Source of the DNA: Chloroflexota bacterium | Lineage (GTDB): Bacteria; Chloroflexota; Anaerolineae; J036; Brachytrichaceae | NCBI GenBank assembly: GCA_025354985.1 | Contig: JANXLU010000085.1 | Coordinates: forward strand, 1-64,000 | Direction: 5' to 3' | DNA: 64,000 bases | Part shown: positions 56,694 to 64,000 of the stretch, piece by piece | Layout: each line of letters starts with the position of its first letter | Position numbering within the stretch: the stretch's first letter is position 1 | Notes under the pieces: model-generated | The model's input: the letters and a program-made list of their open reading frames with translations, nothing else | Database searches by the model: none | What the model was told of the DNA's origin: nothing | Translations under genes and position numbers: made by a program

Positions 56694-57795
56694 GTGCGCC
56701 CCGGTCAACAAATTCGCAATACTTTTCCAGAAGGCAGAGCTGGTTTAACGCACGATCCCTGTTGTGGTGTTCATACCGGCAGCCGTAGTAGCGGTCATTG
56801 TCAAAGTAATCTGTCATAAATCGTACGGCCTGCATCAAGATCATGTATTTACCGGCAAACGGAATAAGTTCGATTTCGCTGGGTTTTAGGTGCGCTGTAA
56901 AGCCGCGTAAATATCCTCTGAGAACGGCACGGTAGTAGTCTTGACGGATGCAAATGCTTTCCAGTTTCACGTGGTTTTCATCCACAGGACATAGATAAGT
57001 TCTCATCATATCCCCCACATCACTCACGATTGTTCCCGGCATAACGGTATCCAAATCTATGACGCATATGCCGGCCGCTGTGTGGCTATGAAACAGCACA
57101 TTGCTGATTTTCGTGTCATGATGCATCAATCGAACTGGCAAACGTCCTTGCTTAACCTCCTGAGCGAACCGGCTCGCAATATGGAAGTGGTTGCGGAGCG
57201 ATGCAATTGCTTCGAATTGTTCCGAGACACGCTTCACATTACCAGTTTCCACGCTTCGTTCAAATGCATTAATGCGCATATTGAGATCGTGAAAATGCGG
57301 AATTGAAGGCGTGATCTTGTCGGCCGAAACGTATTCGAGCAGGCGGCCAAAGACGCCGAATTGGCACGCCGCTTCCTCAGCTCTTTCGGGTGAGTCCGCA
57401 AATATTTGGGATTTGCTGTGAGGTATGAATTCGAACATTCTCCAAAATCCCGAACCGGTTTGAATCATCGTGCTTCCGTAGCTGCTTCGCACTGCAGCAG
57501 GCAGAATGTAAGCGGGATTGCGAGCTATGATCGCCTCGACAACCGCAGTTAGGTTCCGATCAAGGATAGTTGGGTTGGGAAAAACATTCGTGTTAATCCG
57601 TTGCAGCACAAATGCCGGACTCTCCCCGGGAAGACTAAGAACCACGGTTGTGTTTATCAGTCCATGCCCATAATCGCGGGGTTGGTAATCCGGACCAACG
57701 TTAAATGCGTCCAGAACTTCGGCCAGACCATCGTATGCAGGAACGCCTTCCAATACGCTATATGGTGAGGTATTTTGCTCGGCCAGGTCAGGCAT
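56686..57795 (-). CDS. Phosphotransferase similar to N-acetylhexosamine 1-kinase
   Basis: Aminoglycoside-phosphotransferase-fold protein of 369 residues. It has the pattern of the NahK-like group: YGHGLINTTVVL near 42, LQRINTNVFPNPTILDRN near 63, the catalytic loop RLMHHDTKISNVLFH with Asp and Asn, and VIDLDTVMPG then DVGDMMR for metal binding. Members phosphorylate N-acetylhexosamines at C1, but other sugars or small molecules are possible. The start overlaps the molybdenum hydroxylase stop by 8 bases (ATGCCTGA), and the stop overlaps the methyltransferase start. These three unrelated functions share one message. Confidence 0.8.
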   Translation of the reverse strand: MPDLAEQNTSPYSVLEGVPAYDGLAEVLDAFNVGPDYQPRDYGHGLINTTVVLSLPGESPAFVLQRINTNVFPNPTILDRNLTAVVEAIIARNPAYILPAAVRSSYGSTMIQTGSGFWRMFEFIPHSKSQIFADSPERAEEAACQFGVFGRLLEYVSADKITPSIPHFHDLNMRINAFERSVETGNVKRVSEQFEAIASLRNHFHIASRFAQEVKQGRLPVRLMHHDTKISNVLFHSHTAAGICVIDLDTVMPGTIVSDVGDMMRTYLCPVDENHVKLESICIRQDYYRAVLRGYLRGFTAHLKPSEIELIPFAGKYMILMQAVRFMTDYFDNDRYYGCRYEHHNRDRALNQLCLLEKYCEFVDRGAHG

Positions 57796-60094
57796 CTTTT
57801 TGTGAACTATTAATTGCGCGCCATATTCGCTCTGGCTTTAGCGGAATGTCAATATGAGTAATGCCAAATGGTGACAGCGCGTCGAGCACGGCATTTGCTA
57901 TGGCGGGCGTAGACCCTATGGTTGCCGCTTCACCAATTCCCTTGACCCCGAGTGGATTAAGGGGTGTGCGCGTCTCGGTTTGTGCAAGAATAAATTGCGG
58001 AAAGTAGGATGCCTTTGGCATCGCATAGTCCATCATCGTACCGGTCATGAGTTGACCATCGTCGCCGTAAACCGCTTCTTCATATAGCGCCTGGCCGATT
58101 CCTTGGGCGATTCCACCATGAATTTGACCCGCCGCGAGTTTTGGACTGATCCTCGGGCCACAATCGTCAACGCTGAAATACTCACGAATGAATACACTGC
58201 CCGTTTCTCTATCAACATCAACCACGGCAATGTGGTTGCCGAAAGGATAAACCAACTCGGGTGGTTTGAAATAGTCGGTGTATTCCAGTCCGGGATCGAT
58301 ATCGTCAGGGAGCTCATCCGAATAGGCTTTTTCGGCGATTTGAGCCAGCGACAATGCCTTCATCGGGCTGCCCTTTACAAAATATTTTCCATCTGCAAAT
58401 ACGACATCTGTTGCGTCCGCTTCAAGAATGTGGGCGGCAATTTTTAGGGCCTTTGAGCGAATGTGTCGGCTCGCGCGCAACAGACTGCTGCCACCAACGA
58501 CAATACTTCTGCTGCCCATCGTGCCGTTTCCCATAGGGGTGTTTCCAGTATCGCCGTGGCGAACTTGGATCCGATCGAAGTCAACGCCGAGTTCGTCTGC
58601 AACGATTTGAGCAAACGTGGTTGCTCCGCCCTGACCATGGGGACTAACGCCAGTTGTAACTGTGACGGTACCAGACGGCTCAACACGTATTTGGGCGCTG
58701 TCAAACGGGCCAAAGCCGCACATTTCAACATAGCTGGCTACACCAATGCCCATAAGGAGACGGCCGCCATCGGAGCGTCTGTTGGCTTGCTCCACACGTA
58801 GACCGGCATAGTTGCTCAAGGACAGTGCAGTGTCCAGATTGCGCTCATAATCCCCGCTATCGTAGACTTTTCCGGTAGGCGTGGCATATGGAAACGCGGA
58901 TGGCGGGATGTAATTTCTGCGACGAACTTCGGCGGGATCAATGCGAAGTTGTCTTGCGACCAAATCCATTAATCTCTCAAGGTAGTACGCGGCTTCAGGA
59001 CGTCCGGCACCCCGGTAAGCAGCCACCGGAGTCGTGTTTGTGTAAACACAATTTGCCGCTATTTCAATATCTGTCACGGCGTATGTTCCCACACCCATCA
59101 ACAGCGTGAGGTCCGGGATGTCACTGGCAACCGGATACGCGCCAATGTCACCATAAATGGTCATGCGCAGACCGGTTACCACGCCCCGCGCATCCACGGC
59201 CGCCGACACATCAGCAACCTGAGCTCGCCCGTGGGTGGTCGCAAGTCCATGCTCGCTGCGATCCTCGATCCACTTGATGGGTGCGCACAATTTCTGTGAC
59301 ACAAGCGCCACAACCGCATCTTCAGGATATAGACCTATCTTTACGCCGAAACCACCCCCGACATCCGGAGTGACCACCCGAACGGAATTTTCAGGTATAG
59401 AGAGCATCTTCGCGACGTCGCGGCGAATCCAGTGGGGAGCCTGGGTACTGGTCCAGATCGTGAGACCACCGCTTATTAGATCAGGCTGGGCAATCGTTCC
59501 ACGCGTCTCCATGGGCATTCCAAGCAGTCGCTGATTTACCATCCGCTGGGAAATAGTGGCAAATGCGTTTGAAAAGGCTTTGTCGGGATCACCATGCTTC
59601 ACGGATTTCCGATGTTCGATGTTGTCGGGGGAACTTGGATGAACAATCGCGGCATTTGGTACAAGCGCTGCGAGAACACCAATTGTTGCAGGCAGCACCT
59701 CAAAGTCAACGTTGATTAATACCGCTGCATCCGCTGCGATCGAGGCCGAACGGGCAATGACGACTGCGAACGCCTCGCCCACGTGGCGCACTTCAGAAAT
59801 CGCAAGGGGCGGATGGGATTCAAGCCGCACTCCGTTGAGTTGCTTTCCCCAAGCCATGGCGCCAAGTTCATGTTGCAGATCTGCGCCGGTAAACACGGTC
59901 ACAACGCCATCCAAATTACGTGCAAAAGTTGAATCGATCGCAATAATCCTGGCGTGCGCGTGCGGACTGCGCACGAAATGTGCGTAGAGTTGGCCCGGAA
60001 TGTTGATGTTTGGTACAAAGTTTCCGCCGCCAACAATCAAGTGTGGATCTTCCTTACGCTTGACTTCGGCACCCATCATTTTGGCTGTAGGCAT
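57788..60094 (-). CDS. Molybdenum hydroxylase large subunit (xanthine dehydrogenase/form II CoxL family)
   Basis: Molybdopterin-cytosine-dinucleotide subunit of 768 residues. The N-terminal KRKEDPHLIVGGGNFVPN is typical of the CO/aldehyde dehydrogenase group. The active-site loop reads AYRGAGR, the form II signature, not the AYxCSFR of true CO dehydrogenase. GVKGIGEAATIG near the C-terminus carries the catalytic Glu. The Fe-S and FAD subunits are absent nearby. The upstream neighbour is divergent and the downstream ones are a kinase-like protein and a methyltransferase. The start ATG at 60094 has AAGGAG 11 bases upstream. The substrate is probably an aldehyde or N-heterocycle, but it is unknown. 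Confidence 0.88.
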   Translation of the reverse strand: MPTAKMMGAEVKRKEDPHLIVGGGNFVPNINIPGQLYAHFVRSPHAHARIIAIDSTFARNLDGVVTVFTGADLQHELGAMAWGKQLNGVRLESHPPLAISEVRHVGEAFAVVIARSASIAADAAVLINVDFEVLPATIGVLAALVPNAAIVHPSSPDNIEHRKSVKHGDPDKAFSNAFATISQRMVNQRLLGMPMETRGTIAQPDLISGGLTIWTSTQAPHWIRRDVAKMLSIPENSVRVVTPDVGGGFGVKIGLYPEDAVVALVSQKLCAPIKWIEDRSEHGLATTHGRAQVADVSAAVDARGVVTGLRMTIYGDIGAYPVASDIPDLTLLMGVGTYAVTDIEIAANCVYTNTTPVAAYRGAGRPEAAYYLERLMDLVARQLRIDPAEVRRRNYIPPSAFPYATPTGKVYDSGDYERNLDTALSLSNYAGLRVEQANRRSDGGRLLMGIGVASYVEMCGFGPFDSAQIRVEPSGTVTVTTGVSPHGQGGATTFAQIVADELGVDFDRIQVRHGDTGNTPMGNGTMGSRSIVVGGSSLLRASRHIRSKALKIAAHILEADATDVVFADGKYFVKGSPMKALSLAQIAEKAYSDELPDDIDPGLEYTDYFKPPELVYPFGNHIAVVDVDRETGSVFIREYFSVDDCGPRISPKLAAGQIHGGIAQGIGQALYEEAVYGDDGQLMTGTMMDYAMPKASYFPQFILAQTETRTPLNPLGVKGIGEAATIGSTPAIANAVLDALSPFGITHIDIPLKPERIWRAINSSQKDA

Positions 60095-60187
60095 GTTGTA
60101 AATTGCTCCTTTGCATGAACGAAACGCGGTTTGGCTGTATCGTAACAGACGTTGGAGCATCGGCCTACGACATTGTCACGATGCGTT

Positions 60188-60193
60188 TAAACT
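60188..60193 (+). promoter_or_regulatory. -10-like element for the glycosyltransferase at 60201
   Basis: TAAACT, 7 bases before the ATG, with no Shine-Dalgarno sequence. Confidence 0.35.
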
Positions 60194-60200
60194 GACGGGT

Positions 60201-62234
60201 ATGCGCAGTTCGCTCGGAATACTCGTGGTGTCAATCGTGGTGTATTTGACAATTGGGCTTTATGATCTGAGTCTCCCCGGTCTGCATTATGACGAAGCGG
60301 CTGACGCCGTGCCCGCCATGCAAATGATTCAGGGTGCGCACCCTAGCAGCATCAGCACCATAAATCTCTTCGGACGCGAATGGCCGTTAATGATGTTGCA
60401 CCACATTGGGCCGACAACAATCTACACGAGTTGGGTCGGTTTCCTCATCCTTGGTGTGTCAGTTGGAGCATTGCGAATCTCGCAGATGGCTGTCGGTACT
60501 ATTGCCTTGGTTCTATTATGGTGCCTGGCGCGGATTTGGTACGGATCTTTGGTGGCGGCACTCGCTGCCGCACTGTGCGCAACCAGCCCGGCCTTTATTT
60601 GGTGGAGCAGGGCGGGCGCAAATTGGACTATTCCACTACTTCCTCTTTCGTTAGCACTAATGATATGCCTTACCGCCTGGTGGCGATCACAGCGCTGGCA
60701 GTGGCTGGTCGTTACCGCAATTGTTTTTGGCGCGGGTGTAATGACCAAAATTCTGTTTATCTGGCTGGCGGCTCCGGTGGTTTTGACGGCACTTCTGGTC
60801 AAAACTCCCAAAGTATGGCTGCGGTCTCTGGCGCAGTTGGGAATTTCCAGGGTCTGCGCCGTGCTCATTGGTCTGTGTTTCGGGGCGTTTCCGCTGATCG
60901 TATACAACATCCCTTCTCTGGCCACGTTGCGATTTGTGATGTCCAATGCGCAATTGACAACAACATACGGTCACAATAATCTTGACTTTTTGACGAATAT
61001 ACGGACAGTTTTGATCGAGTGGTTTCACATGGTCGGAGGGGACACATTGTCATTTGAGGGGCCGCCTGGACTATGGCAGCTTGGAGCGATGGTCTGGCTG
61101 ATGATTCTGCTGGCTGGAGTGATTGAGCAGCAGAAGAAAACAAAGAGCGGACGGTCCCCTTCTGCCGTGTTCCTGGTCGCCTTACCAGTTGCCGTTCTGC
61201 CTATCAGCACAGTAAGCACCAGTAGTATTGGTGCAACGTATGTTTTCTTCCTGGTGCCATTTGCAATGCTGATGATTGCAAAGTATTGTGCCAGAGGGTT
61301 GCAAAAACGACCAGGTGGAATCAAGATATTTCGCACACTGGTTGGATTCTTGATTGCATTAGTTCTTATCAATCAGCTCGCAACCAATATCATGTTGCTG
61401 CAGTTTTTTGAGCAATCCGGCGGCAATCATCTGTGGTCAGATTCGATCGTTTCTTTAAGTTCATATTTGGCCGAAAGGCCCGCTGCTGGCAGGTTGATCG
61501 TATTGGATTGGGGCTTCAAACGAAACTTGGAATTGCTGACTGGTGACAAGGTAAACCCGGAAGAAATGTTTGGCTTTTCGCAAATTCCGGAGGCGAACTT
61601 TGAAGTGATTTGCAGTGATGCCCTACGGCAACCTAATGTGCGTTTTATCGCACACGCTCTCAGCAATGAAGTGTTTCGAGGCCGCCTGCAAATTTGCGAA
61701 CGCAATGCACAAAAGTTGGGCTTGCAATTTCAGAAAGATGCTGTATTTGTCCAGCGTGACGGCGCGGTTAACTCGGAACTCTACTCGGTGGTCAGTCCCG
61801 AGCCACTTCGTGCCATACCAGCCGACTATACGGCCAGGAACGCTACCATTGGAGACGGAGTCACATTGCTGGGTCATCACATGTCGGTGAACCATGCACT
61901 GGGCGAAATAACGCTTCGGCTGCTTTTCCGCGCGGACCAGGACAAATTGGTCGACGACACCCTGTTGATACACGTGATCAATGAGTCAACAGGCCAGCTT
62001 GTTCTTGCGGCAGACCAGAAGCCGCGCTATGGATATCACTCTTTTGATCAATGGTTGCGGGGAGAGCTGGTGGATGATATCCATTGGTTGGCCATGCCGC
62101 CGGATTTGCCATCCGGCACGTACCAAATACGAGTAGGTCGTTATGATGCCGCGACCGGAGTCAGACGGGCAATTGTTGATCCTCTGCAGGACTCCGCCGG
62201 CGACAGCTTGCGCATCGAAACCTTTCAATGGTAG
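60201..62234 (+). CDS. ArnT/PMT-like membrane glycosyltransferase
   Basis: Membrane protein of 677 residues with about 11-12 hydrophobic segments to residue 420 and a soluble tail of about 250 residues with a beta-rich end. The acidic pair is in LHYDEAADAVPAMQMIQG after the first segment, the GT-C/ArnT pattern. I use the ATG at 60201, since the upstream frame lies in the promoter region shared with the divergent molybdenum hydroxylase gene. It is most like the protein at 44640-46631 in length and layout. Monocistronic, with unknown acceptor. Confidence 0.75.
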   Translation: MRSSLGILVVSIVVYLTIGLYDLSLPGLHYDEAADAVPAMQMIQGAHPSSISTINLFGREWPLMMLHHIGPTTIYTSWVGFLILGVSVGALRISQMAVGTIALVLLWCLARIWYGSLVAALAAALCATSPAFIWWSRAGANWTIPLLPLSLALMICLTAWWRSQRWQWLVVTAIVFGAGVMTKILFIWLAAPVVLTALLVKTPKVWLRSLAQLGISRVCAVLIGLCFGAFPLIVYNIPSLATLRFVMSNAQLTTTYGHNNLDFLTNIRTVLIEWFHMVGGDTLSFEGPPGLWQLGAMVWLMILLAGVIEQQKKTKSGRSPSAVFLVALPVAVLPISTVSTSSIGATYVFFLVPFAMLMIAKYCARGLQKRPGGIKIFRTLVGFLIALVLINQLATNIMLLQFFEQSGGNHLWSDSIVSLSSYLAERPAAGRLIVLDWGFKRNLELLTGDKVNPEEMFGFSQIPEANFEVICSDALRQPNVRFIAHALSNEVFRGRLQICERNAQKLGLQFQKDAVFVQRDGAVNSELYSVVSPEPLRAIPADYTARNATIGDGVTLLGHHMSVNHALGEITLRLLFRADQDKLVDDTLLIHVINESTGQLVLAADQKPRYGYHSFDQWLRGELVDDIHWLAMPPDLPSGTYQIRVGRYDAATGVRRAIVDPLQDSAGDSLRIETFQW

Positions 62235-62270: not shown

Positions 62271-63485
62271 CTAAGATTTTCGAAGAATTGAAAATCCCAC
62301 GAGTAGGGCACCGCTTGCCAGTGCGATATGCGCAAGATTGAACACCGGCATGGCGCCAATTTGAATAAAGTTTAATACGCCACCAGCCACGAGGCGGTCC
62401 AATATGTTTGAAAGTAGCGCACCTAGCGCCACCGAGAGCCCGATTTTTTGGATTCGGGCTGCCGTGGTGGGCCCGGCTGAACTTGCAACTGCGAGAATTA
62501 TCAGAAGGCTCGCAAGTGTGGCGGCGAGCAATTCAACCAATACCGGCAAAACCGTGCCGAATACGGTGGAAGGCGCCGCCACATCCAGAACACCAATTCG
62601 AAGCAACCCACCCAAGAGTTGCCAAGGCGCCAGGCCGCGTATGATTATTTTTGACAACTGGTCTACAAAGAGGACGCCAAGGCCGATTGAAACCATGGGC
62701 CCGATAGCCAAAACTTTCGACAGCGCCCAATCACCATTGGCACTTCTCGTTGCCTGAGTTCTGGAGGATAAGCTCGCCCCTGTGAAGCGCGTTGTGCCTT
62801 GACCGGGCAGCTTATCAGTTGCAATGGTCATCCATTTTCCAAGCTCCACTTTGGCGCTCCATGATTCGGACAGGTTAATGGGTGTGAGCTTGGCGCCAAG
62901 CATCTTATCGTCGCCGATGCAGACCAGCCTGACGTCGTCTGCTTGCAAAAAATAGCTTGCGGCTTCAAACAGTTCAGCCGCGCCTACCGAGCTCACTTTG
63001 TCCAAATGATCCAGGGCGATTATGAGCAGGCGTCCGACGGCCCCGACCACATTTTGGGCCAACTTTGGAAACGAGTTGCGGAAGCGGTTTGCAAAATTCC
63101 CAATAAGAATTTCAGATGCCTCGGGGGATTCCAATTTTGCTGCTTGAACGGCGGTAAGCAACTCTCCCCGAAGAGATGCAATGACGCCTTGATCACGCGG
63201 AACCGCGTTTTCACTCAACTTGTCCAAAACAACGCTCAGCAGGTGTTGCCAGGGCAGGAGGTATCCTGGCAACTCAGTTGCGTCGATCAGAACTACCATG
63301 CAGGTTCGTCCACCTGGTGTGGAAACGGTGGAGGACGATAAATCCTTGATCAGGGTTGTCTTTCCACTGCCCCTCGGACCAAACAACCCAAGCCAGGGCT
63401 TGCTCGCCGGGGATTCGAGATCACACGCCAGCAAAAGCTCGTTGCGCGCATTCTGTTGGTCTGTCGTTAGCCGTGAAGGTGACAT
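62271..63485 (-). CDS. KAP-like P-loop NTPase fused to an LspA-like (signal peptidase II) domain
   Basis: 404-residue fusion in the position where lspA usually follows ileS. Residues 1-220 are a P-loop NTPase with Walker A GPRGSGKT (36-43), Walker B LLIIALDHLDK (153-163, DH rather than DE) and FLQADDVRLVCIGDD (180-193), resembling KAP-family NTPases. Residues 258-402 have four hydrophobic segments in the LspA pattern: VDQLSK (274-279), SNILDRL (359-365), and PVFNLAHIALASG (380-392). Signal peptidase II needs two Asp. The first is present (Asp363), but the FNxAD Asp is His386 here, and the conserved NxGAAF segment is unrecognisable. It may be a pseudo-peptidase or a divergent enzyme. It starts 8 bases after ileS. 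Confidence 0.78.
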   Translation of the reverse strand: MSPSRLTTDQQNARNELLLACDLESPASKPWLGLFGPRGSGKTTLIKDLSSSTVSTPGGRTCMVVLIDATELPGYLLPWQHLLSVVLDKLSENAVPRDQGVIASLRGELLTAVQAAKLESPEASEILIGNFANRFRNSFPKLAQNVVGAVGRLLIIALDHLDKVSSVGAAELFEAASYFLQADDVRLVCIGDDKMLGAKLTPINLSESWSAKVELGKWMTIATDKLPGQGTTRFTGASLSSRTQATRSANGDWALSKVLAIGPMVSIGLGVLFVDQLSKIIIRGLAPWQLLGGLLRIGVLDVAAPSTVFGTVLPVLVELLAATLASLLIILAVASSAGPTTAARIQKIGLSVALGALLSNILDRLVAGGVLNFIQIGAMPVFNLAHIALASGALLVGFSILRKS

Positions 63486-63493
63486 TGATGCCG

Positions 63494-64000
63494 TTAAAGA
63501 CGCTCGCCCTTGGTTTTTTTGATTTTGATCGCGAGTTGTTCGCCATCGAACGCATCGGTGAGTGCATCCGGTGAGGCGTTGTCCAAAACGTTCATTTGAT
63601 CCGTGAGTGTCTCGTCCTTAATAAATCCCGCAAAGGATTTGATCGCGTTTGCAAGCCGAGGAGAAGCGGAATAGTCCAATGTGATTCTGTCAGACAGTTT
63701 GAATCCACTCGTTTTGCGCAAGTCATTTACTCTCCGGATCACCTCGCGTGCCAATCCCTCTTCGATCAGGGGTTCATCGAGTTGAGTATTTAACGCAACA
63801 ACTATTCCGCCACTTGCCTCCACGACCAACCCCGCACGTGGCTGTGGCTGCACGATTAATTCATGAGCTTCAAGTTGCTGACCGGCAATCACGATAGGCT
63901 GGCCGGCGCGAACACTGCGAACTATTTCAACCGAGTTCGATTCTGCCAATGCCGCCTTTACGGCCGGCATGTGATGCCCAAGGCGTTTCCCCAACTTTCG
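63494..64000 (-). CDS. ileS: Isoleucyl-tRNA synthetase C-terminal part (truncated by window)
   Basis: Only the last 168 or so residues are in the window, and the frame is open to the right edge. The sequence KLGKRLGHHMPAVKAAL, then EGLAREVIRRVNDLRKTSGFKLSDRI, is the C-terminal region (DUF5915-like) of type 2 (eukaryotic-like) isoleucyl-tRNA synthetases. The catalytic core and HIGH/KMSKS motifs lie outside. The stop is 8 bases before the NTPase-LspA fusion, so the classic ileS-lspA order is kept in altered form. Confidence 0.88.
   Translation of the reverse strand, partial: RKLGKRLGHHMPAVKAALAESNSVEIVRSVRAGQPIVIAGQQLEAHELIVQPQPRAGLVVEASGGIVVALNTQLDEPLIEEGLAREVIRRVNDLRKTSGFKLSDRITLDYSASPRLANAIKSFAGFIKDETLTDQMNVLDNASPDALTDAFDGEQLAIKIKKTKGERL

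Follow-up and report, generated by a model that had tools for sequence, protein, structure and literature searches.

LspA, the signal peptidase II and a target of antibiotics, is generally viewed as an aspartyl peptidase that acts alone. In the 64,000-nucleotide stretch of Chloroflexota DNA analyzed here (the window), the gene directly behind ileS encodes a P-loop NTPase joined to an LspA-like domain, which raises the question of whether this protein is still a signal peptidase and, if it is not, what an LspA fold might be doing at the end of an NTPase. The fusion reading frame is open and begins with an ATG 8 nt past the ileS stop codon. The gene, its upstream neighbor, and the parts of the encoded protein are as follows.

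63494..64000, minus strand: 3' part of ileS, the conserved upstream neighbor of the fusion (the full ileS, 1135 aa, lies on contig C93)
62271..63485, minus strand: KAP-like NTPase/pseudo-LspA fusion gene, 404 aa, from the open reading frame and its translation; homologous fusions occur in 27 of 28 family genomes
62796..63485, minus strand: KAP/AAA+-type P-loop NTPase domain, about residues 1-230, from Pfam, the model match to RdrA (Z 14.0) and other AAA+ proteins, and the motif table
62274..62714, minus strand: pseudo-LspA domain, about residues 253-404 (coordinates given for residues 258-404), from the Peptidase_A8 match (48 bits) and the AlphaFold model aligned with VIA-align to 5dir_B (Z 13.6)
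Residues 262-290, 308-334, 341-367, and 384-403: the four predicted transmembrane (TM) helices of the pseudo-LspA domain

A gene read as a membrane glycosyltransferase-like protein (60111-62234, plus strand; reading alone) is convergent with the fusion gene, so that no lspA comes next in the window. A xanthine-dehydrogenase-type molybdenum subunit, likewise assigned by reading alone, is encoded at 57788-60160 (minus strand).

The C-terminal part of the protein was matched to LspA by both profile and structure. Pfam Peptidase_A8 (PF01252) covered residues 269-400 with 45-48 bits (best, 48.2; cut-off, 25). In the AlphaFold model (input, a 17-row alignment; mean pLDDT, 76.7), an alpha/beta NTPase at residues 1-228 and a low-confidence link at residues 226-261 are followed by four helices and a short hairpin. 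Aligned with solved LspA structures, the C-terminal part gave a Z of 13.6 over 136 residues with 5dir_B and 13.1 with 6ryo_A, and a 632-aa fusion from a relative (L065) gave a Z of 15.2 with 5dir_C (rmsd, 2.5 over 127 residues). A Z of 13 can be reached by chance for helical bundles, but the sequence profile independently agrees on the LspA fold. Part of the beta-cradle of LspA is held in the TM1-TM2 loop; no strand was assigned in this loop of the window model, where confidence is low. The models, with pTM values of 0.55 for the window protein and 0.44 for the relative, do not fix the placement of the two domains relative to each other. A preliminary description of the locus, made from the nucleotide sequence, had proposed a P-loop NTPase joined to an LspA-fold domain behind ileS; this observation is confirmed, the C-terminal part lying within the LspA fold and the fusion being family-wide.

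In the NTPase domain of the window protein, both the Walker A motif (GPRGSGKT, residues 36-43) and a Walker B-like motif (LIIALDHLD, with Asp159) are intact. The domain scores slightly below the Pfam cut-offs for AAA_16 and KAP_NTPase (PF07693; 17-19 bits against 20). The KAP_NTPase profile matches 21 of 24 fusion homologues at an E value of ≤0.01 (a typical member, L039, reaches 38.6 bits against the cut-off of 20), and the earlier KAP-like assignment thus stands, with the window copy itself just below the cut-off. Structurally, the NTPase part came closest to RdrA, at a Z of 14.0, followed by many other AAA+ proteins with Z values of 11-13.

To assess the active site, residues were mapped by HMMER alignment onto the numbering of Pseudomonas aeruginosa (Pa) LspA. 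The catalytic dyad of LspA is formed by D124 and D143 (PMC7482066), and by D118 and D136 in the Staphylococcus aureus enzyme (PMC6952399). The corresponding and neighboring sites of the window protein are listed below.

62328..62330, minus strand: His386 (codon CAT) at the position of catalytic Asp143; His in 25/25 fusions
62370..62372, minus strand: Asn372 at the position of catalytic Asp124; Asn in 21/25 fusions
62397..62399, minus strand: Asp363 of NxxDR (Pa D115), conserved but not catalytic; kept in 25/25 fusions
62661..62663, minus strand: Asp275 in TM1 (Pa D23); kept in 25/25 fusions

The preliminary description had one catalytic Asp replaced by His386 and the other retained in NxxDR. 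The His and its CAT codon are as described, and Asp363 is kept; however, D115 of LspA, although it belongs to a set of 14 highly conserved residues, is not part of the dyad, and the second catalytic residue, D124, is lost as well. At this position, the four fusions that lack Asn carry Asp, Thr, His, and Ala, one each. The reported loss of the NxGAAF segment extends throughout the family, with Asn54 and Gly56 missing in the window and in nearly all fusions. Both dyad Asp residues were intact in all 26 single-domain LspA proteins compared, the window genome's own copy included. Among the 25 fusions, further pocket residues are largely kept (K27 in 24, F139 in 24, N140 in 21, and R116 in 20). Five columns of the pseudo-LspA domain are fully invariant, the His among them, and it stands out because the mean top-residue frequency of the domain is only 0.50.

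Since Asn and His replace the dyad, Asn54 and Gly56 are lost, and in S. aureus LspA either Asn substitution, D118N or D136N, leaves 0% activity (Table 1 of PMC6952399), the window protein is predicted to be catalytically inactive. This prediction, which extrapolates from mutants of another species, agrees with the inactive LspA proposed earlier. A still-active signal peptidase II in which His and Asn stand in for the Asp dyad could account for the retained fold and pocket residues, but we regard it as very improbable given the dead Asn mutants, the additional loss of Asn54 and Gly56, and an intact LspA in each of the 25 genomes whose fusion is complete. Judged by the features compared, the protein does not belong with active LspA: it has the fold and the profile of the family but neither the Asp dyad nor Asn54 and Gly56.

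The genome searches that the preliminary description called for recovered both genes in question, a separate lspA with intact catalytic residues, on contig C47 beside ligA, and lgt. A missing canonical lspA is also ruled out for the rest of the family, every genome with a complete fusion having an intact copy. The C47 gene (L034:7357-7881, minus strand), the sole intact lspA of the window genome, is very divergent and overlaps ligA. It differs from the lspA type of the window's genus mates and may be a replacement by gene transfer.

The fusion lies directly behind ileS in 27 of 28 genomes of a Candidatus Roseilinea/Thermoflexales-type Chloroflexota family; 25 of these fusions are complete and 2 are interrupted by a contig end. 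The 28th genome, an assembly 78% complete, has no ileS at all. No full-length fusion was found outside the family among the 396 class genomes and 251 phylum genomes searched. A scan of named genomes gave no match with the window protein alone, and an alignment query recovered 16 named relatives. These are Candidatus Roseilinea, Thermoflexales, and other Anaerolineae metagenome-assembled genomes, so that the window probably comes from this part of the Chloroflexota. Neither an LspA pseudoprotease nor a KAP-LspA fusion turned up in the open literature searched, although this does not prove that none has been described; the fusion is a real, conserved, and apparently undescribed protein built from two known families.

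This distribution also bears on whether the window gene could be a sequencing or assembly error or a decaying pseudogene. The copy is short (404 aa) and sits on a long branch, yet the same His occurs in 25 independent assemblies, a single-contig genome included, the reading frame is open, and the relatives show purifying selection (below), making an artifact scarcely credible. The preliminary description had itself raised the possibility of a single-base error turning an Asp codon into CAT; with the His fixed in 25/25 assemblies, that explanation is ruled out. The short length is due to the middle helical region, most of which is missing in the window's genus and in G006.

In the tree, a single branch (support, 100/99) separates the LspA domains of the fusions, which have long branches, from the rest, without a firm placement of their exact sister group. 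Across four close pairs, the dN/dS of the pseudo-LspA domain was about 0.2-0.6, which is less than 1, indicating purifying selection at the sequence level, and is above that of canonical lspA, and the domain evolves faster than canonical lspA. Several other Anaerolineae have KAP NTPases whose NTPase and middle regions resemble those of the fusion (fusion profile match, 1e-22 to 1e-32). These KAP-type proteins, found at L081, L086, L088, L090, and L091, carry C-terminal domains read as formylglycine-generating-enzyme-like. The simplest route to the gene, and probably its birth, would be a tandem duplication of lspA followed by fusion of one copy to a KAP NTPase of the type seen in other Anaerolineae. 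Tandem pairs of intact lspA occur in other Anaerolineae families (L082:852-1895 and L085:4956-6049) and are possible analogues of such a duplication.

In 22 of the 25 complete loci the fusion has ileS upstream and an intact lspA immediately downstream, and the fusion and lspA frequently overlap at their stop and start codons. The genes beyond lspA depend on the lineage, and a conserved third operon partner was sought in the fusion loci and not found. In the window's genus (g1) this arrangement has been lost at three of three loci, and the intact lspA lies elsewhere in the genome.

In KAP NTPases, a TM insert usually interrupts the NTPase domain. No TM-like helix was assigned inside this domain in the fusion models, and by model and by reading the membrane helices are only C-terminal. 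A dead LspA copy might therefore simply replace the usual insert, as a plain membrane anchor for a KAP function unrelated to lipoproteins. The LspA part being the only membrane part, the joint loss of NxGAAF and the dyad, and the broken linkage in g1 all suit such an anchor. The conservation pattern does not: a bare anchor would not be expected to keep the His in 25/25 fusions along with D23, D115, K27, F139, and mostly N140 and R116, and few parts of the domain are better conserved than this polar pocket and its His, nor would the fusion gene be expected to overlap lspA in many genomes. The ATP site, which would then be the functional part, has fared worse. About 7 of 24 fusions (L052, L054, L056, L058 [genus g7], L045, L053, and L059) have a degenerate Walker A motif, and these members still keep the pseudo-LspA His, so that in these alignments the pseudo-active site is better kept than the ATP site. 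Taken together, these points leave the anchor explanation plausible but rather unlikely. The same P-loop decay implies that ATP-driven work is not general to the family and disfavors an obligate motor.

A conserved pocket might instead signal new chemistry, with the invariant His and the retained Asp115/Asn140 pocket forming a putative catalytic or metal site in the membrane. The His, Asp115, and Asp23 are each present in 25/25 fusions, and Asn occupies position 124 in 21/25; but canonical LspA keeps Asp23, Lys27, and Asp115 just as strictly, so that these may be structural, and some fusions differ at Arg116, Asn140, or position 124. We consider a new enzyme improbable.

Kinship of the NTPase suggests a further alternative, in which the protein is a guard that senses, through the LspA-like domain, an attack on LspA or the envelope by phage or by LspA-directed antibiotics (such as globomycin or myxovirescin), perhaps as a decoy. 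QatA profiles match the NTPase of 18 of 24 members and PifA profiles that of 4 of 24, the best structural match is RdrA of RADAR, and Tmn is a KAP-family defense NTPase described with TM domains (PMC11846954). This kinship is all that favors the reading. The fusion occupies one housekeeping locus throughout the family, its distribution is neither patchy nor island-like, and neither partner defense genes nor a defense-island setting was seen at the fusion loci, where the neighbors are ileS and lspA. Moreover, globomycin and myxovirescin contact the catalytic Asp residues (PMC6952399), which are absent here, and the P-loop has been lost in several lineages. An immunity-type role is thus unlikely, if slightly less so than a new enzyme.

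The known systems delimit the fusion from several sides. It shares with LspA (5DIR, 6RYO) the four-TM fold (Z 13-15), the Asp/Lys of TM1, NxxDR, the FNxA- segment, and an ileS-linked locus, and differs in lacking both catalytic Asp residues and NxGAAF, in being joined to an NTPase, and in coexisting with an intact LspA. Like KAP NTPases (PF07693; QatA, PifA, Tmn), most members match the family profile, and their NTPase and middle helical regions resemble those of other Anaerolineae KAP proteins; unlike them, the fusion has no TM insert that could be seen, its membrane part is the C-terminal pseudo-LspA, and its P-loop is degenerate in some members. RdrA (8hr8, 8fnt) resembles the NTPase domain but has no LspA domain and only about 15% identity, and a shared fold does not prove a shared function. 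In mode only, the fusion recalls the iRhoms, rhomboid-family pseudoproteases that regulate membrane clients without cleavage (PMC6451368): both are dead intramembrane proteases with added domains, kept beside active relatives. The iRhoms, however, have an unrelated fold, are eukaryotic, and lack an NTPase.

We tentatively favor, at somewhat less than an even chance, a membrane pseudoprotease, in which a dead LspA duplicate provides the membrane part for a cytoplasmic KAP-type NTPase and works with LspA or its clients. In its favor stand the family-wide distribution, the intact lspA next door in most loci, the fixed His in place of a lost dyad residue, the single clade, and purifying selection; the broken linkage in the window's own genus and the faster evolution of the domain speak against it. 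The pseudo-LspA domain would sit in the membrane and, because the topology of LspA places its N terminus in the cytoplasm, the NTPase would be cytoplasmic. The altered pocket or the helices would bind LspA, prolipoproteins, or cut signal peptides, although the family-wide loss of NxGAAF, a ligand contact in LspA, counts against plain LspA-like substrate binding. The NTPase would form a ring or scaffold on the cytoplasmic side and there control or clear such clients, and the action as a whole would be comparable to that of iRhoms, regulating membrane clients without cutting them. The interpretation offered in the preliminary description, an inactive LspA turned into a membrane anchor or substrate sensor for an ATPase, is in this respect partly supported.

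If this reading is correct, an NTPase-linked dead LspA, kept family-wide next to the working enzyme, would give the iRhom idea a parallel in bacteria and would add a component to bacterial lipoprotein maturation. It could be the first lineage-wide LspA pseudoprotease, with ATPase-coupled control or clearance of LspA or its clients, or else a new His-based chemistry, though we hold this, too, at slightly less than even odds. The question of regulatory partners for LspA becomes directly testable, and the fixed Asp-to-His change offers a single residue to probe. Collectively, the architecture and the destroyed active site suggest that, in this family, the protein takes part in lipoprotein processing as a regulator or partner and not as an enzyme.
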